From positions 1 to 59,611 of the forward strand of contig NZ_MSKS01000020.1 in the NCBI RefSeq assembly GCF_001937445.1: 59,611 bases of DNA, given 5' to 3'. Position numbers and translations under genes: made by a program. The notes under the pieces were generated by a model. The model was not told where the DNA came from, made no database searches, and was given only the letters and a program-made list of their open reading frames with translations. Shown here piece after piece: positions 49,705 to 59,499 of the stretch (positions are counted from its first letter, which is position 1; the number at the start of each line of letters is the position of its first letter). The stretch comes from Actinomyces oris (GTDB lineage: Bacteria; Actinomycetota; Actinomycetes; Actinomycetales; Actinomycetaceae).

Positions 49705-50517
49705 ATGTCCCTCCAACCCTGGTTACTCGGCGCCGCGGCACTCGGCTCCGTCGCACTCATCGCCGGTCCGGTCTCCGCGTGGACGCGGCGCTACGTGCGA
49801 GAGCCCTTCAACGACGCGAACACGACCGATGCCGGCACCCACGGCGCGACGGACACCCCGAGACACCCAGCGGACGGCATGACGAGCGACCCCCGAGACA
49901 GCGCCCAGGCGCCTTCACAGGCCCCCTCCACTCCTCCCCCTTCACCCGAGCACCCGACACTGAAGCATCCCGGTCTCCTCAACGCAGTACCCCAGGGACT
50001 GCTGGCCCTGCCCCTATGCCTCATCTGCGCCTGGTGGGGGAACCGAATAGGCGCCACCACCGCAACGCTCACTGCCATCCCCGTGTACGCACTGCTCGGA
50101 TGCGCCGGAAGCGTCGACGCCGTGGCGCACCTCCTCCCCAACCGCCTGCTGGGCGCCACGGCCGCCTGGCTGGCCGTATGCGGCGTGGTCGCCGTCGTTC
50201 TGGATCCCGACAGGGCTCACACCGCCCTCACCGCAGCTCTCTGCGCGCTGGCGGTGGGCGGCATCAGCCTGGCCCTGGCGTACTTCCGCACCGGCCTGGG
50301 GCTGGGAGACGTCAAGCTCGGCGCGGTGATCGGCCTCTGGCTGGGATGGCTCAACCCCTGGCTGCTCGTCTTCGGACTGTGCGCCGGGGTCTTCCTGGGT
50401 GGGATCGGCGCGCTGTTCCTGCTCATCACCCGCCAAGCGTCACGCAAGGACCCCATGGCCTACGGCCCCTACCTCATCGCCGGAGCCCTGCTCACCTGGC
50501 CGCTGGCGATCGTCTGA
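49705..50517 (+). CDS. tadV: Prepilin peptidase (A24 family) of the Tad pilus
   Basis: The 270-aa membrane aspartyl protease removes the leader peptide of Flp and the TadE-type pseudopilins. The two catalytic aspartates are visible: Asp138 in SVDAVAHLLPNRLL and Asp202 in the GxGD motif GLGLGDVKLG. There are about six membrane segments. An unusual polar, Pro/Ser/Thr-rich insertion of about 55 residues (40-90) follows the first membrane segment. There is no N-terminal methylase cysteine domain, as is typical of TadV/CpaA. Start ATG at 49705 with GAAAGG upstream. Confidence 0.9.
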   Translation: MSLQPWLLGAAALGSVALIAGPVSAWTRRYVREPFNDANTTDAGTHGATDTPRHPADGMTSDPRDSAQAPSQAPSTPPPSPEHPTLKHPGLLNAVPQGLLALPLCLICAWWGNRIGATTATLTAIPVYALLGCAGSVDAVAHLLPNRLLGATAAWLAVCGVVAVVLDPDRAHTALTAALCALAVGGISLALAYFRTGLGLGDVKLGAVIGLWLGWLNPWLLVFGLCAGVFLGGIGALFLLITRQASRKDPMAYGPYLIAGALLTWPLAIV

Positions 50518-50728: not shown

Positions 50729-51514
50729 ATGCTTGTACTCACCGCCTCCCGGCCCCACCCGGACGCCACTAAGGACTGGGACATGGGTCAGGCCGTCACC
50801 GTCCTCCAGCAATTCGGTCAGGGACCGGCCCTGCTGCTGTGCCGCACCGGGGAGGAGGAGCACGCCGCCCGCATGGTTCGGGGGATCCTCAAACGCAAGG
50901 ACCTCGGCATCCTGGCCCTCAATGAGCCCGAGACGCGATTCCGCGCCCTGGCCTACTGCCTGATGCAGCTTCACCCCCGGGCCTACGGTCAGGCACAGAC
51001 AGTGGTTGACGCATTGCAGCCCGCACTACGCACGAGGGTCGCTCTCAGCTCGGTCAGCAGGCTCACCAGCCCTTCACCCACCATCGGGCAGCACCTGCAG
51101 TCGATGCTGCCGGGCTCCTGCTTCACCCTCGACCTGGGGGAGGCGCGAAGCAGCGTCACCAAGGTCAAGGACGTGGTCTGGAACAAGCCGCCTCAGGGCA
51201 GTCTGGCGATCTGGGCCGCGGACGACGAGCAGAACCGAGTCACAGGCGGCCTGCCCTCCCTGGGGCTCCACCGAGAGCCCCTGCTCCCCATGTCTCGCAC
51301 CTGGCCGGCCAAGTCCTGGGCGGAAATGACCGTGCTCATCACCGACCCCGGCCCTCTTGTCTCGCAGGCGCTTGCGCCCCTCACCCGGACCTTCTGCCCC
51401 TACTGCGGTCAGCTAGCCGTCCCACAGGGATGTCTCCTGTGCGGCACGTGGCCCAACGTGCCCGCGCCGGCGCCCCGCGCTTCCGCACCCCACCCAGTCA
51501 AGGAGTCCTCATGA
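50729..51514 (+). CDS. Unknown Tad-locus protein with C-terminal zinc ribbon
   Basis: This 261-aa soluble protein does not fall in a family I recognise. The first 200 residues look alpha/beta, with short hydrophobic strands (ALLLCRTG, LGILAL, TVLITDPG) but no nucleotide-binding motif. The end carries a clear zinc ribbon, CPYCGQLAVPQGCLLCG (CxxC...CxxC), followed by a Pro/Ala-rich tail. ATG at 50729 has TAAGG upstream. Its stop overlaps the cpaB start (ATGA), so it is co-translated with core Tad genes. It is probably an assembly or regulatory factor of this pilus. Confidence 0.75.
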   Translation: MLVLTASRPHPDATKDWDMGQAVTVLQQFGQGPALLLCRTGEEEHAARMVRGILKRKDLGILALNEPETRFRALAYCLMQLHPRAYGQAQTVVDALQPALRTRVALSSVSRLTSPSPTIGQHLQSMLPGSCFTLDLGEARSSVTKVKDVVWNKPPQGSLAIWAADDEQNRVTGGLPSLGLHREPLLPMSRTWPAKSWAEMTVLITDPGPLVSQALAPLTRTFCPYCGQLAVPQGCLLCGTWPNVPAPAPRASAPHPVKESS

Positions 51515-52230
51515 ATCCGCGTCAACGTCGAGGTGTTCTGCTCATCCTCGTCACCGTCCTTGGAGCAGTGGTCACCTTCGTGGCCATGTTCAGCTACGTC
51601 CAGTCGATCTCCTCGCAGGTCGGCCCCATGACAACCGTCCTCAAGCTGTCCCAGCAGGTGACCGAGCTCAAGGAGGTCACTGCGGCCGACGTCGTGACCG
51701 AGCAGGTTCCCAAGCGGTGGGTTCCCGACGACGCCGTCCATGACGTCAATGACCTCAAGGGCAAGGTGGCGGCGTCCACCTACAACAAGGGGGCGGTGCT
51801 GCAGACCAGCATGCTTCAGGACCCACCACAGCTGGCGGAGGGGTATCGAGAGGTGTCGATCATGATCGACGCCGAGACCGGCGTCGCCGGCAAGGTCACC
51901 CCGGGCTCCCGAGTCGACGTCGTCTCCACGGTGGAGGACCCCAACACCAAGGGGCAGAAGGCCCAGATCATCATCCAGAACGCGCTCATCACCGAGGTCG
52001 GTGTGACCACGAAGGTGCAGGACAAGGACGAGAACGGGAACTTCTCCGAGGAGAAGGACAGCGTCCCCGTGACCTTCTCGCTCACGCCTGAGCAGTCGCT
52101 CAAGCTCGCCTATGCCGAGAGCTTCTCGAAGAAGGTGCGCCTCCTTCTGCGCCGCGACGGCGACCAGGGGAGCGCCCAGACCCCCGAGTACTCCGCCAAT
52201 CCCGGAGCACCTGCCCAAGGAGCGAACTGA
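51511..52230 (+). CDS. RcpC/CpaB-like Tad pilus assembly protein
   Basis: The 239-aa protein has an N-terminal membrane anchor (RGVLLILVTVLGAVVTFVAMFSYV). An SAF-like domain follows (VVTEQVPKRWVPDDAVHDVNDLKGKVAASTYNKGAVLQTSML), then the CpaB/RcpC region with REVSIMIDAETGVAGKVTPGSRVDVVSTV. In Gram-negative bacteria this partner links to the secretin. In actinobacteria there is no outer-membrane secretin, and its role in the cell wall is unclear. ATG at 51511 overlaps the preceding stop by 4 bp, and the stop overlaps the next start (TGATG). Confidence 0.88.
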   Translation: MNPRQRRGVLLILVTVLGAVVTFVAMFSYVQSISSQVGPMTTVLKLSQQVTELKEVTAADVVTEQVPKRWVPDDAVHDVNDLKGKVAASTYNKGAVLQTSMLQDPPQLAEGYREVSIMIDAETGVAGKVTPGSRVDVVSTVEDPNTKGQKAQIIIQNALITEVGVTTKVQDKDENGNFSEEKDSVPVTFSLTPEQSLKLAYAESFSKKVRLLLRRDGDQGSAQTPEYSANPGAPAQGAN

Positions 52231-53768
52231 TGCAGTACCTAGTCACCGATCATGAGGAGACCCGTCAGCAGGTACTGGCGGCGATGGCCGAGGCGGAGGG
52301 GCTTGGTGAGGTCCGTACTGTCGCCTCGCCTGAGAAGCTCAGAGAGCTTCTGGAACCGGACGTCACGTCGTGCATTCTGGTCGATGAGGCGCTGGAGGGG
52401 CATATCGCCCTGCCCACCGTTCAACAGCTCTCCCGATCCCTCCCGCTCATTCCCGTTGTTCTGCTGAGCCGGACCCGCACCTCCGAAAACGTTGTGGCGG
52501 CGATGGACACCGGAGCGCGGACCGTGCTGGGGCTGCCCTTGTCGCTCGAGGAGATCACGAACCGCCTGCTCCCGGTCCTGGCGTGGTCGCGCGCGGTACG
52601 CAGCGAGGCCTCGAGCCGGCAGGAGATCACAGCTCGCCGTCAAGGCACGATCACCGCCGTCGTCGGCGCCAAGGGCGGCGTGGGCACCTCGACGGTCGCA
52701 CTCATGGCTGCCGCCCAGCTCGCTCAGGGAGCTCGCACCTGCCTGGTGGATCTCGATGTTCGCGGTGGTGACCTCGCCGCCATGACCGGCATTTCGGTGC
52801 GCCGCTCCATCGCCGATCTGGCCGACATCGCAGCGGAGGTCAGCGCCCGAGAGATCTCCGAAATCCTGTACCCCCTCCCCGGCGGGATCGCGCTCTTGCC
52901 CGCTCCGGAGCAGGGCGAGACCGGTGAGCTGTTGACGGAGTCGGCCACGCGGCAGATCCTCACCATGCTGCGTTACCAGTTCGACCACGTGGTCCTGGAC
53001 TGCGGCAACCGCCTTGACGACATTCTGGCCATGGGGCTCGACTCCGCCGACCGAGCCCTCATCGTCGCAACCCCCGATGCTCCGGCACTGCGCTCGGTGC
53101 GCAGGCTGAGCGATGCGCTCGACCGCCTCGATATCGCCCGTGGACGCCCCTTCGGGCTGGTGGTCAACCTGACCAGCCGGCAACGCGAGATCCAGCCGGC
53201 CACCGCGGCGAAGATGACGGGAGTGGCACTGGCCGCCAGCATTCCCGATCTGACGACTCAGATCGAGATGGCCGTCAACTCCAACACATTGCTGACGTCG
53301 AGGGTTCCCGCCATGGCTAAGGCCGCACAGTCCATCGCCGGAGCCATCACGACCGGAACAGCGCCGAGTCCTGGCGGCGCTCCTGACCGGAGTGCGGCGG
53401 AGGGCTCGACCAAGGCCTCGCGACGAGGACGCAGGCGCCGCCGCTCGGAAAAGGGCCAGATCACGGTGGAGTTCCCCGTGGTCTTCGCCCTGGCCACTGC
53501 CGTGATTCTGATGTGCATCCAGGCACTGAGCCTCGGAGTCTCGTACATGTACGCCACTCATGCCGCCAACGAGGCGGCTCATGCCTATGGCGTCGGGAAG
53601 AGCCCCGGTCAGGTGCAGCAGGAAGTCACCAGTCGCCTGCCCAGCAGCTACGCCGCACGCACCAAGGTGACACGCTCCGGAGCGGACAGGGTGACCGTCA
53701 CGCTTCCGGTCCTCTCCGTTGTCGATATGGATACCTCCGCAAGTGCCGGAATCGTCTGGGAGAAGTGA
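52230..53768 (+). CDS. Fusion of TadZ/CpaE-type ATPase with a TadE pseudopilin
   Basis: One 512-codon frame holds two normally separate Tad components. Residues 1-125 form a receiver-like domain. Residues ~138-375 form a MinD/ParA-type ATPase (TadZ/CpaE) with P-loop GAKGGVGTST at 146-155, TCLVDLDVRGGDLA and FDHVVLDCGNRL. TadZ localises the pilus machine inside the cell. After a polar linker and RRGRRRRRSEKG comes QITVEFPVVFALATAVILMCIQAL. This is a class III leader with cleavage expected at G409/Q410, Glu at +5 and a membrane helix, then ~80 extracytoplasmic residues of TadE type. TadV could cut it into two proteins. Start and stop overlap both neighbours (TGATG), arguing against a local frame error. 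Confidence 0.88.
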   Translation: MQYLVTDHEETRQQVLAAMAEAEGLGEVRTVASPEKLRELLEPDVTSCILVDEALEGHIALPTVQQLSRSLPLIPVVLLSRTRTSENVVAAMDTGARTVLGLPLSLEEITNRLLPVLAWSRAVRSEASSRQEITARRQGTITAVVGAKGGVGTSTVALMAAAQLAQGARTCLVDLDVRGGDLAAMTGISVRRSIADLADIAAEVSAREISEILYPLPGGIALLPAPEQGETGELLTESATRQILTMLRYQFDHVVLDCGNRLDDILAMGLDSADRALIVATPDAPALRSVRRLSDALDRLDIARGRPFGLVVNLTSRQREIQPATAAKMTGVALAASIPDLTTQIEMAVNSNTLLTSRVPAMAKAAQSIAGAITTGTAPSPGGAPDRSAAEGSTKASRRGRRRRRSEKGQITVEFPVVFALATAVILMCIQALSLGVSYMYATHAANEAAHAYGVGKSPGQVQQEVTSRLPSSYAARTKVTRSGADRVTVTLPVLSVVDMDTSASAGIVWEK

Positions 53769-54184
53769 TGAGAACCATGTCCACAACCGGAGCCGCCCGC
53801 CCGGCCCGTGTCATCTCAACCCCGAAGCGTCTGATCAGCCGTCTACGTCACGATGAGCGAGGTGTCCTCGATATTGAGCTCATTGGATTCGTGCCGATTC
53901 TGGTCCTGGTCACCATGTTCCTCGTTCAGGGCTTCCTCGCCGTCTCCACGGTGACCTCCGTCAGCGCAGCCGCCCGAGACGGCGCTCGCGCGGCGATGCT
54001 GGGGCGCTCCCCCGAGCAGGCCGCGCACCAGGCCCTGCCCGACTGGGTACGCCTGGAGTCCGTATCGGATAGTTGCGGTCCGGGGCACTGCGTCCAGGTG
54101 ACCGCTCGGGTTCCGATCGGCATCCCTTCGATTACAAGCGAACACGTCACCGTGACTCGCACGGCCTACTTCCCCGAGGACTGA
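53768..54184 (+). CDS. TadE/TadF-like pseudopilin
   Basis: The 138-aa precursor has a basic leader ending RLRHDERG, expected cleavage at G32/V33, Glu at +5 (VLDIE), and a hydrophobic helix LIGFVPILVLVTMFLVQGFL. A ~90-residue extracytoplasmic part includes two Cys (SDSCGPGHC) that could form a disulfide. This is the minor pseudopilin pattern of Tad systems, partner to the TadE domain at the end of the preceding gene. ATG at 53768 overlaps that gene's stop. An earlier in-frame ATG lies inside the previous gene and is not used. Confidence 0.85.
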   Translation: MRTMSTTGAARPARVISTPKRLISRLRHDERGVLDIELIGFVPILVLVTMFLVQGFLAVSTVTSVSAAARDGARAAMLGRSPEQAAHQALPDWVRLESVSDSCGPGHCVQVTARVPIGIPSITSEHVTVTRTAYFPED

Positions 54185-54185
54185 C

Positions 54186-55493
54186 ATGGCACTACGAGAC
54201 CGGGTTGTCCATCCCCAAGAAGGAAAACGGCAGACTGCTGGAAGCCGAGAGGATCTGGTGGCCCTCTACCGAACCCGGCTGCTGGAGGAGATCGACCTAG
54301 AAGAGGTCGCAGGCCTAGAGCTGGCCCAGCAGCGAGCCCGTCTGGAGCGGGTGCTCTCACGGCTTCTGTCCCTCGAGGGCCCTGTCATGTCGCCACGAGA
54401 GCGGGCCTGGCTCATCAAACGAGTGATCGACGACGCGGTCGGGCTGGGAGTGCTCGAACCCCTCATCGCAGATCATTCCGTCACCGAGATCATGGTCAAC
54501 GGCATGGAGGATGTCTTCATTGAGCGCTCCGGACAGATCGAGCGGGTCCCCACCCGTTTCACGTCCGAGGCCGAGCTGTACCAGCTCATTGACCGCATCG
54601 TCTCCTCAGTCAACCGCCGTGTGGACGAGTCCAGTCCCATGGTCGACGCGCGTCTTCCCGGCGGAGAGCGTGTCAACGTCATCATCCCGCCGCTGGCGCT
54701 CGACGGGCCGACCATTACCATCCGCCGGTTCCCTCAGCCCTTCCGCCTCTCCGATCTCGTCGCTAGAAACAGCCTGCCCCAGGAAGCCGCCGATCTCCTG
54801 GGGACACTGGTAGCCGCTCGGTTCAATATTCTCGTCTCCGGCGGGACCGGATCGGGGAAAACCACCTTCCTCAACGCGCTGTCGGGAATGATCTCGAATC
54901 GAGAGCGAATCATCACCATCGAGGACGCGGCCGAGCTGTCTCTCCAGCAGCCCCATGTGGTCCGCCTGGAGGCCCGCCCGGCCAATACCGAGGGAGCAGG
55001 ACAGGTGACAATTCGTGATCTGGTGAGAAACTCGCTGCGTATGCGCCCCGACCGCATCATTGTTGGCGAAGTCCGCGGCGGAGAGACGCTCGACATGCTC
55101 CAGGCCATGAACACCGGCCACGAGGGCTCGCTGACAACCGTGCACGCCAACACCGCGACCGACGCACTGAGCCGCTTGGAGACACTGTCCTCCATGTCTG
55201 ATGTCACGCTACCGGTGGAGACCATTAGAGATCAGATCAATGGCGCAATCGATGTCATTGTCCAGCTGGAACGCGACTCCTCCGGCACGAGGCGAGTCCG
55301 CACGATCGAGGCAGTGACCTCACGACACCACGAGCACTATATGACCTCACTCATGATGCGTTACGTCCACACCGCCCAGAGAGGTCACGACAACTTCGAG
55401 TTCCATGGTGTTTCTCCGTCTATAGCAGACAGAGTCCGCCAGCACGGTCTACAGCTCCCGGCAGATCTGCTTGTGCAGGAGATGGCATCATGA
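54186..55493 (+). CDS. tadA: TadA/CpaF-type secretion ATPase
   Basis: The 435-aa hexameric ATPase powers Tad pilus assembly. It has an N-terminal helical region, then the type II/IV secretion ATPase core. Walker A GGTGSGKTT is at 219-227, the Asp-box region at IITIEDAAELSLQQPHVVRLEARP, Walker B at RPDRIIVGEVRGGE, and the His-box at NTGHEGSLTTVHANTATDALSRL. All catalytic motifs are intact. Start ATG at 54186, one base after the previous stop. The stop overlaps tadB by 4 bp. Confidence 0.96.
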   Translation: MALRDRVVHPQEGKRQTAGSREDLVALYRTRLLEEIDLEEVAGLELAQQRARLERVLSRLLSLEGPVMSPRERAWLIKRVIDDAVGLGVLEPLIADHSVTEIMVNGMEDVFIERSGQIERVPTRFTSEAELYQLIDRIVSSVNRRVDESSPMVDARLPGGERVNVIIPPLALDGPTITIRRFPQPFRLSDLVARNSLPQEAADLLGTLVAARFNILVSGGTGSGKTTFLNALSGMISNRERIITIEDAAELSLQQPHVVRLEARPANTEGAGQVTIRDLVRNSLRMRPDRIIVGEVRGGETLDMLQAMNTGHEGSLTTVHANTATDALSRLETLSSMSDVTLPVETIRDQINGAIDVIVQLERDSSGTRRVRTIEAVTSRHHEHYMTSLMMRYVHTAQRGHDNFEFHGVSPSIADRVRQHGLQLPADLLVQEMAS

Positions 55494-56416
55494 GCAATGT
55501 CCTTCTCGTCTACATCAGTGGTGCGGCCACCCTCATCATGGGGAGCGCAGCCCTCATCACCATGTCTGCCAATGCGGGGCGCACGGCCGAGCTCGCACAA
55601 GGCCTCGGAGCCACGGATATCGCCCAGGGAGTGGGGGCGGGGAGCCGTACTCTCGCCTTGATTCGCCGACTGCCCTTCAGTAAACCACTGAAGCGCAAGA
55701 TGTCCGGGGCCGGGCTGAGCTGGGATGTGGCCATCACCGAGCTGGTTCTCATCACAGCTATTACCGCAACCTTCTTCCTGGCGCGCCCGTTGATCGGACG
55801 AATCGCAGGAGGCATCCTGGCAGCACTCATTCCCTTGGTGTTCTTCCGATGGTTGCGTCGCCGTACGGCTCAACGAGTGGAACGATTCATCGCTCAGCTC
55901 CCGGAGGTCTCCCGCATACTATCTAACGGCACATCCGCAGGAGTGTCGATCGAGCGATCCCTCGCTCTGGTGGCGCAAGAGATGTCGGATCCGGCACGAG
56001 CCGAGCTCAGCCGGGCCACATCACAGCTAGCGCTTGGATGGTCCTTGGACGGTACGCTCTCTGACCTCGCTCAGCGGATGCCCTCACGCGAGCTGAATGT
56101 CCTCGTGCGTACGATCATTATTCAGTCAACAGCGGGAGGAGCATTGGCCGGTGCACTGCATGACATCGCACTCGCACTTGAGGACCGCAAGCAGTTGCAC
56201 CGCGAAGTCCGGACCGCCATCATTGGTTCAGCCTTCAGCGCCTACCTGGTCCCTATCATCGGCCTCGTGGCCATCATCCTCATGAACACGATGAAACCGG
56301 GAGTCTTAGACGACATGGCATCGTCACCTATCGGTCAAATCATCCTTCTCGCGTCACTCATCTGTTTTGGAATCGGAGCCCTACTCATGAAGATCGTCTC
56401 CCGGGTGGAGGTGTAG
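55490..56416 (+). CDS. tadB: TadB-type inner-membrane platform protein
   Basis: The 308-aa membrane protein has a T2SSF domain: RFIAQLPEVSRILSNGTSAGVSIERSLALVAQEMSDPARAELSRATSQLALGWSLDGTLSDLAQRMPSRELNVLVRTIIIQSTAGG. Two membrane segments precede it and two follow at the C-terminus. TadB and TadC form the base on which the ATPase acts. Start ATG overlaps the tadA stop (ATGA). The gene ends one base before tadC. Confidence 0.93.
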   Translation: MSNVLLVYISGAATLIMGSAALITMSANAGRTAELAQGLGATDIAQGVGAGSRTLALIRRLPFSKPLKRKMSGAGLSWDVAITELVLITAITATFFLARPLIGRIAGGILAALIPLVFFRWLRRRTAQRVERFIAQLPEVSRILSNGTSAGVSIERSLALVAQEMSDPARAELSRATSQLALGWSLDGTLSDLAQRMPSRELNVLVRTIIIQSTAGGALAGALHDIALALEDRKQLHREVRTAIIGSAFSAYLVPIIGLVAIILMNTMKPGVLDDMASSPIGQIILLASLICFGIGALLMKIVSRVEV

Positions 56417-56417
56417 C

Positions 56418-57308
56418 ATGCCCGCAATAATATACTCCACTGCAGCGGCATTCGTGGTGCTCCTTGCAGCCTACGGAATCCACCTCATCAAGGATGACGG
56501 CACTAGCCAGCCTGGAATCGCCGACCATGACGACAAGAAGGTCGAACGAAAAAGCGGCTTTGTCCTGCTGATTGACACACTTGGCATCAGGACGCAGCAG
56601 TCTCTCCGCCGCCTCTATGGGCCACTCCACCTAAAAAAGCTCGATCGTCGTTTAAAAAATGCAGGCAATCCAGAAGGCCTCACCCTCGACCTATTCATCC
56701 AGAGGGAGGCGGGATTCATTTCCCTCAGCATCCTTCTTATAGCAGTGTTCACCCTGTTAGGCCACCCCGTCTACGGACTAGCGTTTGGAACGATATTTTC
56801 AGGCTGGATGTACCTCTGGCTGTTTCAAGCGGTTCAGAAGCGACAGGCAGCGATCGACCGCGACCTACCCGACTTCCTGGACATTCTCGCCATTACAGTA
56901 TGCTCAGGTATGCCATTTCGCAGTTCGTTGGAACGAGTGTGCAACCATTTCGATGGGCCTGTGGCCGAAGAAATGCGTAAAACACTTCATGAGATGCGAC
57001 TCGGAGTTTCTCGTCGCGACGCCTTCACGTCCCTCAAGAAACGTTGCCGTTCCGACAATATCGACAACTTCGTCACCACGCTCCTCCAGTCCGAAGAATT
57101 AGGCACGCCGATCGGCGACGCCCTTACGTCAATCGTCAAGGAGATTCGTCGCGAACGCGCCCAGCAGGTCCGTCGTGCTGCAGCCAAGGCACAGCCCAAG
57201 GTAGCACTCATCGCCACGACCACCATGGTTCCAGGCGCCATGATCCTCATGCTCGGAGGGATGGTCTTCGCCAATCGGGACACTTTCGCGAAATTATTTG
57301 GCGGATAA
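56418..57308 (+). CDS. tadC: TadC-type inner-membrane platform protein
   Basis: The 296-aa partner of TadB has four membrane segments and a T2SSF domain: RDLPDFLDILAITVCSGMPFRSSLERVCNHFDGPVAEEMRKTLHEMRLGVSRRDAFTSLKKRCRSDNIDNFVTTLLQSEELGTPIGDALTSI. The loop RRERAQQVRRAAAKAQPKVALIATTTMVPGAMILMLG is typical of TadC. This gene and the next are somewhat AT-richer than the upstream Tad genes. Its stop is one base from the kinase ATG. Confidence 0.93.
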   Translation: MPAIIYSTAAAFVVLLAAYGIHLIKDDGTSQPGIADHDDKKVERKSGFVLLIDTLGIRTQQSLRRLYGPLHLKKLDRRLKNAGNPEGLTLDLFIQREAGFISLSILLIAVFTLLGHPVYGLAFGTIFSGWMYLWLFQAVQKRQAAIDRDLPDFLDILAITVCSGMPFRSSLERVCNHFDGPVAEEMRKTLHEMRLGVSRRDAFTSLKKRCRSDNIDNFVTTLLQSEELGTPIGDALTSIVKEIRRERAQQVRRAAAKAQPKVALIATTTMVPGAMILMLGGMVFANRDTFAKLFGG

Positions 57309-57309
57309 A

Positions 57310-58548
57310 ATGCAAGAAATTAATTCACAAGACTCGCAACCCCCATCGAGATTCATTCACCACCACGCCCTTTTTACCGCAGTGGCTCTGATCTGCGACA
57401 TACGGCTTGGCCTCATCCTGGCCTGCGAGCTAGGAATCATTGCATCAAGCACCGACAGAGGGGCTGTTGCGGTCCCCCTCCTGGGGCTAAGCATCAACTG
57501 GGCGACTTTGAGGGTGTTCAACAGGCATCCTCGCCTCATTGTCAATAACTGGACTTATTTATGCGCCGATCTGGTCACGACCTGCGTCATCACCAGCGCT
57601 CTTCCTGCAACATTCCCGGGAGGTCTTGCTCTTTCTCTTGCCTATCTTATCGCATCGTCGGTACTCATCGGCCTTGTAAGTCAAGCGTTCTGGGCGTCAT
57701 TGTGGTGCGTCGGTACTACCCTATCGCTCGCGCTCCTTAAGTTACATGACGCCTCAATTTCCACAGTTGTGGCCGCCACTATGGTTGCTGGAATCTTTTT
57801 CAGCGTCCTGCTCGGGAACCGATTGAACAGCCAGTTCACGGACATCAGTCGTCTTTCCGCCGAGGCCGCATTCGCCCGAGCAGAAGAACGCGCCACCGCC
57901 GAGAGACTCACGATTGCCAGAGATCTGCACGACTCGCTCGCCAAGAGCATCCATGGCATTCGCATGCTCGCCGAATCCCTGGACAGCTCTCTCGGTGCTG
58001 AGAACCACCCAGACGCTCCACTCAGTCACACGCTCCTCGAGGCCGCGGACGAAGCAAGCAGGGAAGCCCGACTCGTCCTTGACGGACTGCGTTCCGGGGG
58101 CGACGAGGACATCATTGGCGCTCTTGTCGAGGAAGCCACAAGATGGGGGGCACGCACAGGACTGTCGGTCACTGTCAACCGCGGCGACTCAGACACCCCC
58201 TTGCCCTGCTCGACCGAGGCGATGTGGCAGCTTCAGCGCATCCTGGGCGAGATCCTTGCCAATATTGAGAGGCACGCCCATGCCACGTCGGTCGACCTCT
58301 CAATACTCCACGACGACAGCTGCTTCCGCCTCGATGTCCGCGATAACGGCATCGGTTTTAGAGAGGATGTCAAAGGCCTCTACCGAGAGGGTCATTACGG
58401 ACTGGCAGGGTTGAAGGAACGTTCTGAAACACTGAACGGCGCCTTCAGTATCGATTTGCCCTCCGAACCGACTGCGGGGACCCGTGTTCGACTTCGTGTC
58501 CCCATCACATCGCTTCATTCCGCTAGCGACAAGGAGAAGATAGTATGA
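57310..58548 (+). CDS. NarL-type sensor histidine kinase of the Tad locus
   Basis: The 412-aa kinase has five or six membrane segments in its first ~170 residues and little extracytoplasmic sequence. A HisKA_3 dimerisation helix follows, with LTIARDLHDSLAKSIHGIRML (His about 207). The HATPase domain has EILANIERHAHATSV (N box), DNGIGF (G1) and GHYGLAGLKERSE (G2). The short loops suggest that it senses a membrane-internal or membrane-bound cue. ATG at 57310 is chosen over a TTG inside tadC. The stop overlaps the response regulator start (ATGA), so the two form a coupled two-component system within the pilus operon. Confidence 0.92.
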   Translation: MQEINSQDSQPPSRFIHHHALFTAVALICDIRLGLILACELGIIASSTDRGAVAVPLLGLSINWATLRVFNRHPRLIVNNWTYLCADLVTTCVITSALPATFPGGLALSLAYLIASSVLIGLVSQAFWASLWCVGTTLSLALLKLHDASISTVVAATMVAGIFFSVLLGNRLNSQFTDISRLSAEAAFARAEERATAERLTIARDLHDSLAKSIHGIRMLAESLDSSLGAENHPDAPLSHTLLEAADEASREARLVLDGLRSGGDEDIIGALVEEATRWGARTGLSVTVNRGDSDTPLPCSTEAMWQLQRILGEILANIERHAHATSVDLSILHDDSCFRLDVRDNGIGFREDVKGLYREGHYGLAGLKERSETLNGAFSIDLPSEPTAGTRVRLRVPITSLHSASDKEKIV

Positions 58549-59174
58549 AGGTGATGGTCGTTGACGACAACGCCATTGTCCGTATCGGACTCCGCTCGGT
58601 ACTCGACCGTATCGATGCTGTGGACGAGGTCATCGAGGCAGAGGACGCGTTCTCCGCACTCGAGGCGCACCACACACACTGCCCCGACATCATCCTGCTT
58701 GACGTTTCCATGCCTCCAGGACGCAGCGGACTTGACATCCTCCCAGAACTGAGTTCCGACGCCTCGGTCATTATGCTCACTTCGAATCGAGACCCCAGCA
58801 CTATCCGCCAGGCACTCGACACGGGAGCGCGAGGCTACTTGGTTCACGGTCAGTTGGGCATCAATGAGGTGGCCGGCGCCATTGAGACCTGCCGCAACGG
58901 AGGCCTGGTGCTCGGTAAGGAAGCCGCCGATGTCGTGCTCAATCCTTCGGCTCATAACGTTTCTAGCAACCCTTTGCGTGCGCGGGTCTCGGAACGGGAG
59001 GCTGAGATCCTCGACCTGGCAGCGACCGGTATGTCCAACCAGAGGATCGCCCAGCATCTGTTCCTGTCGGAACGTACGGTCAAGAACTACCTCAACAGCT
59101 CCTACCCTAAGCTGCACGTCCACAGCCGCGCTGAGGCGGTCGCCGTCTGGTTATCGCCGCCCCTTGCTCAGTAG
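58545..59174 (+). CDS. LuxR/NarL-family response regulator, atypical receiver
   Basis: The 209-aa regulator has an N-terminal receiver with acidic pair DD (7-8) and phospho-acceptor Asp53 (IILLDVSMPPG). The C-terminal LuxR helix-turn-helix is SEREAEILDLAATGMSNQRIAQHLFLSERTVKNYL. The receiver Ser/Thr is present (MLTSN), but the normally invariant Lys after GYLV appears to be His101 (GYLVHGQ). This may alter phosphorylation-driven switching. It is coupled to the kinase upstream. flp is the gene immediately downstream, with a dyad in its promoter region, and is the obvious target. Confidence 0.9.
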   Translation: MKVMVVDDNAIVRIGLRSVLDRIDAVDEVIEAEDAFSALEAHHTHCPDIILLDVSMPPGRSGLDILPELSSDASVIMLTSNRDPSTIRQALDTGARGYLVHGQLGINEVAGAIETCRNGGLVLGKEAADVVLNPSAHNVSSNPLRARVSEREAEILDLAATGMSNQRIAQHLFLSERTVKNYLNSSYPKLHVHSRAEAVAVWLSPPLAQ

Positions 59175-59286: not shown

Positions 59287-59499
59287 ATGAACAACAACGC
59301 ACTGCTCCGCCTTCAGGTTCGTCTCCAGCAGGCCTGGATCAACCTTCGCGATGGAGAGCGCGGTCAGACAATGGTCGAGTACGCCGGAATCGCCATCGTT
59401 GCGGCAACGATTATTGGCCTTATAATCACCGCTGCAAACGGGTCTGGTATTGGAGACACCATCATCGACAAGATCAAGGAAGCCCTCGGTAAATTCTAG
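59287..59499 (+). CDS. flp: Flp-type major pilin of the Tad pilus
   Basis: The 70-aa prepilin has a polar leader ending LRDGERG, expected cleavage at G26/Q27, and the Flp signature QTMVEYAGIAIVAATIIGLIITA with Glu at +5 and Tyr at +6. The 44-residue mature pilin ends in a short amphipathic stretch (DTIIDKIKEALGKF). GGAGG lies 5 bases before the ATG, an excellent ribosome site that suits a highly expressed subunit. It lies at the end of the locus, separated from the regulator by 112 bp, so it has its own promoter region and terminator. Confidence 0.95.
   Translation: MNNNALLRLQVRLQQAWINLRDGERGQTMVEYAGIAIVAATIIGLIITAANGSGIGDTIIDKIKEALGKF

Follow-up and report, generated by a model that had tools for sequence, protein, structure and literature searches.

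A single gene for a TadZ ATPase and a TadE-like pseudopilin in Actinomyces oris and its relatives: a putative prepilin with an ATPase as its leader

The tad locus of Actinomyces oris (assembly GCF_001937445.1, contig NZ_MSKS01000020.1) contains a gene, referred to here as tadZE, which encodes a TadZ ATPase and a TadE-like pseudopilin in one intact reading frame of 512 codons without an internal stop. The protein consists, in this order, of a receiver domain, a MinD-type TadZ ATPase, a disordered basic linker, a class III prepilin segment, a membrane helix and a TadE-like head. Judged from the sequence comparisons described below, it is likely, with a probability of about 0.7, that this product is a prepilin with the whole ATPase as its leader, from which a prepilin peptidase produces separate TadZ and TadE proteins. 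The window, i.e. the whole stretch of 59,611 nucleotides under analysis, had been read before in a first-pass annotation, which proposed that both proteins share one frame, with a cleavage site between G409 and Q410 and a Glu at position +5. The joint frame is borne out by the single ORF, the domain matches and the cut-site motif, and no stop or frameshift separates the ATPase from the prepilin segment; the proposed site is present as well, and constraint on its motif is supported across 58 fused proteins. The features of the locus are listed in Table 1.

Table 1. The tadZE gene of Actinomyces oris and its surroundings, with positions in the window
Feature	Position	Strand	Basis or remark
Prepilin peptidase (TadV/CpaA type)	49705..50517	+	Pfam Peptidase_A24 33.2 bits; D138 and GLGD202
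Uncharacterised 261-aa protein, C-terminal CxxC..CxxC tail	50729..51514	+	between peptidase and cpaB
cpaB/rcpC	51430..52230	+	TIGR03177 108 bits, cut-off 71
tadZE fusion gene	52230..53768	+	512 aa; single open frame; Pfam and NCBIfam domains
Receiver-like domain, residues 5-113	52242..52568	+	Pfam Response_reg 38.1 bits, cut-off 30.2
MinD/ParA-type TadZ ATPase, about residues 141-375	52650..53354	+	atypical P-loop, KGGVGTST, in residues 146-155
Possible internal start, GAGGG then ATG (Met363)	53303..53318	+	sequence
Linker, residues 376-408, disordered, Ala/Gly/Pro then Arg-rich	53355..53453	+	pLDDT <50 for 377-412; length variable
Putative prepilin peptidase site G409^QITVE	53454..53471	+	Gly 58/58, Glu 57/58 and Asp 1/58 in fused relatives
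TadE-like pseudopilin half, residues 410-512	53457..53765	+	long helix then three strands; AF2 pLDDT 88.1
Second pseudopilin, TadF-like by position	53768..54184	+	Pfam TadE 24.1 bits, cut-off 22.9
tadA assembly ATPase	54186..55493	+	T2SSE 236 bits
tadB platform protein	55490..56416	+	T2SSF 65.5 bits
tadC platform protein	56418..57308	+	T2SSF 79.4 bits
Flp pilin, ERG^QTMVEY	59287..59499	+	by motif

The N-terminal part combines a receiver-like domain, for which the Response_reg match is also found in 20/20 genus members, with a MinD/ParA-type ATPase (Pfam AAA_31 at residues 141-299, 44.9 bits with a cut-off of 27), and it lies in a tad locus together with TadA, TadB, TadC, CpaB, TadV and Flp, the last of these by motif only. 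Its P-loop at residues 146-155 reads GAKGGVGTST, with a Thr in place of the lysine of the usual GK[ST]. The TadZ identity is claimed via this architecture and this locus, since the top-scoring NCBIfam model, TIGR03815 (septum site-determining protein Ssd), stays with 63.4 bits below its cut-off of 154.45 and names another branch.

The C-terminal part can be designated TadE-like with good confidence. It has the class III features of a Gly at -1, a Glu at +5 and a hydrophobic helix. Instead of a short hydrophilic leader, however, 409 residues including a folded domain precede the cut, which is far outside the 6-51 residues described for pilin leaders (PMC6916266). We chose the name TadE-like because the curated profile cut-offs are not reached: in the whole protein Pfam TadE matches residues 409-450 with 15.2 bits (cut-off 22.9) and NCBIfam TadE_Rv3655c residues 414-506 with 20.6 bits (cut-off 40), and when the half is searched alone the scores are 16.4 and 26.2 bits, respectively, against the same cut-offs. 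With cut-offs set aside, the 49 homologous halves collected at genus, family and order level give 31 matches to Pfam TadE at E 0.05 and 44 to TadE_Rv3655c at E 0.01. Furthermore, the free-standing TadE of a relative (L044) aligns with the A. oris half from the first mature residue on (33% identity, E 4e-11), and a profile of the 49 halves aligns in hhalign with the free-standing protein of a second relative (L067), again from the first mature residue, with a probability of 99.2%. Searches of the half against solved structures gave a best E of 0.48 by structure, which is uninformative, and a single match at E 0.88 by sequence; the lack of better matches is no proof of anything. Two further TadE-family matches lie elsewhere in the A. 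oris genome (L001 and L002, at C13:28858 and C32:11833), and therefore the fused half need not be the only TadE of this genome.

The tadZE gene is tightly packed between its neighbors. At the 5' end its ATG overlaps the stop codon of cpaB (TGATG), and at the 3' end its stop codon shares one base with the start of the TadF-like gene, again as TGATG. This TadF-like protein is encoded separately and has its own 32-aa leader ending in ERG^VLDIEL. Another class III protein is encoded no more than 450 nt downstream in 56 of the 58 fused loci, which is what TadF would predict; in the loci L015 and L018 none was found within this distance. In the gene order of the locus, tadZE thus stands where one could expect both tadZ and tadE. 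The peptidase encoded upstream has both Asp residues, Asp138 and Asp202, and is the single Peptidase_A24 match in the A. oris genome at E 0.001; with only one such match in the genome, the L001 and L002 proteins may depend on it as well. An A24 peptidase is present in 20/20 Actinomyces genomes with the fusion, but its presence alone says little, since 24 of the 29 other Actinomyces genomes have one too. The 261-aa protein encoded between this peptidase and CpaB gave no Pfam or NCBIfam match at E 1; its CxxC..CxxC end is zinc-ribbon-like, and a similar tail is encoded upstream in 40 of the 58 fused loci. Between tadC and the flp gene, at 57298-59174, a sensor kinase and a response regulator, named by reading the sequence, probably control the tad locus. 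The matches of DUF4244 and Flp_Fap to the Flp pilin (residues encoded by 59347-59499) are below cut-off.

From these features the following course of events can be proposed. One precursor would encode TadZ and the minor pilin TadE. The TadZ part would fold in the cytoplasm, and the basic tract together with the class III segment would put the helix into the membrane, so that TadZ faces the cytoplasm and the TadE head the exterior. Until cleavage TadZ would be tethered at the point where TadE enters the membrane. The A24 prepilin peptidase, the sole one found in this genome and with its gene 1.7 kb upstream, would then cleave after Gly409 at the cytoplasmic face, the side on which prepilin cleavage is established to take place (PMC10191384), releasing TadZ as a soluble protein that ends in a basic tail, and yielding a mature TadE with a free N-terminal Gln410 and its Glu5, ready for the base or the tip of the pilus. 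The fused gene would in this way be the functional equivalent of the adjacent and often overlapping tadZ-tadE pair of the relatives. Topology, cleavage and the fate of both halves are what we infer from the sequence.

The cut site is conserved among the fused proteins. In A. oris it reads RRRRRSEKG409^QITVEF, and among the 58 fused proteins Gly(-1) is found in all and the residue at +5 is Glu in 57 and Asp in one. Since these counts were obtained with the same motif finder as the fused and split calls, which demands Gly and Glu/Asp, we also aligned the hydrophobic segments free of any motif. In this alignment of 50 rows, taken from the first 53 members, which were collected before the class-level rows, and including for L067 a spurious Pro-rich stretch rather than a membrane helix, the Gly and the acidic residue are the two most conserved columns. 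The sequence in front of it is variable: between the TadZ domain and the cut the linker comprises 36-260 residues (median 58.5), and the genus alignment has no invariant column in residues 350-409. The 20 residues preceding the cut are basic, with 1-12 Lys/Arg and 7 as the median. The mature half is 103-127 residues long (median 106; all lengths and Lys/Arg counts from the 58 fused proteins).

Alternatively, the fusion might not be cut, or only partly, so that the TadE helix and head would keep TadZ in place as a membrane-bound hub of the assembly platform, by analogy with PulL, a PilM-PilN fusion of type II secretion (PMC10191384). The long flexible linker would suit a tether, and the fusion is kept in 58 of 78 members of the clade. 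We nevertheless regard this as unlikely: Gly(-1) and the acidic residue at +5 would be superfluous in a pure anchor, yet they are kept in 58/58 fused proteins. In pilins that are processed and assemble, the Glu at +5 has a known role, and its retention therefore speaks against a mere anchor, although the conserved Gly and Glu could in principle have some other role. Moreover, split relatives manage without a tether, as judged from 19 TadZ tails: none of them has a class III segment, and a hydrophobic stretch resembling a membrane helix was found in none except L067, where it is a Pro/Ala-rich run, and more weakly L065. In the unfused class members the strongest hydrophobic stretch reaches at most 1.22. 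The split TadZ proteins of L065 and L067 have Pro/Ala-rich tails of more than 200 residues, which end just beyond the overlapping tadE start.

The fusion is widespread. Within the genus, the search gave close TadZ matches (at least as good as E 4e-85) in 20 of 49 Actinomyces genomes, and all 20 carry the fusion; among the matches listed for the other 29, the best are at E 8.9e-13 or weaker and concern ATPase, response-regulator or short TadE-like regions. At family level 27 of 200 genomes have matches, 14 of them Actinomyces, and the other 13 comprise seven fused, one split (L044), one remnant (L047) and four of another CpaE clade. At order level there are 29 of 396, three of them Actinomyces; the remaining 26 comprise 21 fused genomes with 22 genes, two split (L065, L067), one cut by a contig end (L076) and two of the other clade. 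At class level matches occur in 70 of 197 genomes, and the best 30 places include 28 new ones, namely nine fused, 16 split and three of the other clade. The ten rows of the separate, unfused CpaE clade (L048-L052, L077, L078, L105-L107) were set apart. The remnant, a 93-aa piece of TadZ at L047:1492-1773 with KDGVG instead of KGGVG, is probably from a decayed locus and was left out as it has no usable TadZ domain. Altogether the TadZ clade has 78 members from genus, family, order and class, of which 58 are fused, 19 split and one, that of L076, truncated where its contig ends; since membership was decided by similarity to a fused protein, fused members may be favored.

The search in other Actinomyces proposed in the first-pass annotation therefore finds the fusion in every genome having this TadZ, and its caveat that the fusion might be unique to this assembly, with two genes in all relatives, does not apply. 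A fusion by chance is not compatible with an architecture shared by 20/20 of these Actinomyces and 58/78 clade members, and with fused members across family, order and class the idea of a single-genus oddity is ruled out. A sequencing or assembly error, or a recent read-through by chance in one strain, has practically no probability left. It would have to recur in 58 genes of 57 genomes from several families, and it is further opposed by the dN/dS values of five close Actinomyces, calculated from codons aligned according to the protein sequences. Both halves have lower values than the linker (0.13-0.63), with about 0.04-0.14 in TadZ, 0.02-0.24 for signal plus helix and 0.05-0.11 in the TadE-like head as far as synonymous change could be measured. 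No evidence was found in favor of such an error, and the relatives refute it. The linker values argue that the linker is translated in frame, its sequence being of little importance.

The split members show what the two halves look like as separate genes. In 19/19 the next gene beyond the tadZ stop encodes a TadE-like class III protein, and a start codon for it lies from 17 nt before to 22 nt after this stop, overlapping it in 13 of the 19, nine times by 4 nt. From that start the TadE leaders are 10-25 residues long in 16 members and longer in L091, L093 and L095. Profile or BLAST support for these TadE proteins comes from L044 and L067; the others are TadE-like by motif, size and position. 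In a tree of the TadZ domain with 88 rows, six changes between fused and split are required, five of them forced by well-supported branches, compared to about 24 with shuffled labels. One group with a single genus code (f37, g148; 15 genomes) contains three fused and 12 split genes. A smaller tree of 60 rows, in which two split groups are nested in fused ones, had suggested one fusion and two splits, but the larger tree, which adds split groups from other families, would allow several fusions as well. Six changes of state are as expected if both forms work, which suggests, on the level of sequence, that the fused gene works much like two separate genes and that the forms are interchangeable. 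A precursor cut into TadZ and TadE is thus the simplest account, because the forms seem interchangeable and the fused ones keep the residues that the peptidase needs. One could also imagine a timed cleavage, in which the uncut hub gathers TadA, TadB and TadC, and cutting then frees TadZ and at the same time supplies the platform with TadE pseudopilins as a stoichiometric pair, priming one pilus; such an ATPase-led prepilin polyprotein would tie machine placement to pilus start. This is conceivable but rather improbable. The repeated change between fused and split suggests equivalence to two genes and lowers the likelihood of a dedicated coupling of placement to delivery as envisaged in the first-pass annotation.

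If the precursor is cut, TadZ and TadE should arise in equal amounts, but an exact 1:1 output is not certain, because an ATG in the linker preceded by a Shine-Dalgarno-like (SD-like) tetramer, as present in 11 of the 58 fused genes including that of A. oris, could add free TadE. Taken further, TadE might come mainly from such an internal start, with the full-length fusion as a by-product or serving as TadZ only. In A. oris, GAGGG stands 8 nt ahead of the ATG at 53316, from which a leader of 47 aa would result, and good-looking sites are found in L060 and L061. The SD-like tetramer precedes 12 of 34 linker ATGs compared to 726 of 4220 linker codons, a modest excess (Fisher p 0.008, from rows that are related and not independent), and its share is also larger than at the ATGs of TadZ (40/370). 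On the other hand, 34 of the 58 fused genes have no linker ATG, and L011, L042, L080 and L085 have no linker ATG, GTG or TTG at all. Per 100 codons, the linker has 3.1 start-like ones and TadZ 7.0, so that they are less frequent in the linker, and Met363 is not conserved, being Leu or another residue across much of the genus. As the main source of TadE an internal start is hence quite unlikely; as a general rule it is not supported, and it is kept for some species.

TadZ, TadE and prepilin processing were known before, whereas the fusion of TadZ to TadE is apparently new: no description was found in full-text searches of open-licence papers, including passages of PMC3244431, PMC6916266, PMC10191384, PMC2947987, PMC4322843, PMC6668835 and PMC8467076, and an earlier report elsewhere is possible. 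If the fusion is cut, bacterial filament machines would include a polyprotein, namely a prepilin with a whole folded ATPase as leader, well past the described lengths. If it is uncut, it would reveal by what means TadZ is retained at the membrane, which a review calls an unanswered question for Tad pili (PMC6916266). As the split relatives suggest, two ordinary proteins from one gene are the most likely outcome. The joint gene is also a hint that both proteins function at one site and in comparable numbers, and its natural fused and split versions offer a ready comparison.

With TadZ/CpaE of tad (Flp, type IVc) pili the A. oris protein shares the receiver-like domain, the MinD/ParA/FleN-type ATPase, the atypical Walker A motif and a gene in the tad locus. 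The known TadZ/CpaE is a cytosolic stand-alone protein (PMC8467076), whereas the A. oris TadZ runs on into a linker and a pseudopilin. The TadE half shares with the minor pilin TadE of the Rv3655c type the class III site with Glu at +5, the membrane helix, a mature part of about 100 aa and the tad locus, but the minor pilin has a short leader, while the A. oris half is preceded by TadZ and has profile scores below cut-off. Gene order, TadZ clade and cleavage motif are the same as in the split pairs of the relatives (L044, L065, L067 and L086-L104 without L088, L099 and L101), which differ from the single frame of the fusion by having two reading frames and mostly short TadE leaders. The domains of PulL/GspL are not known to be related to TadZ-TadE or to contain a prepilin cleavage site. 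Like the A. oris fusion, PulL/GspL unites two proteins, here PilM and PilN, and it does so at the membrane within a type IV filament machine (PMC10191384), and among the tad proteins themselves a TadB-TadC fusion has been reported in Micrococcus luteus (PMC4322843).
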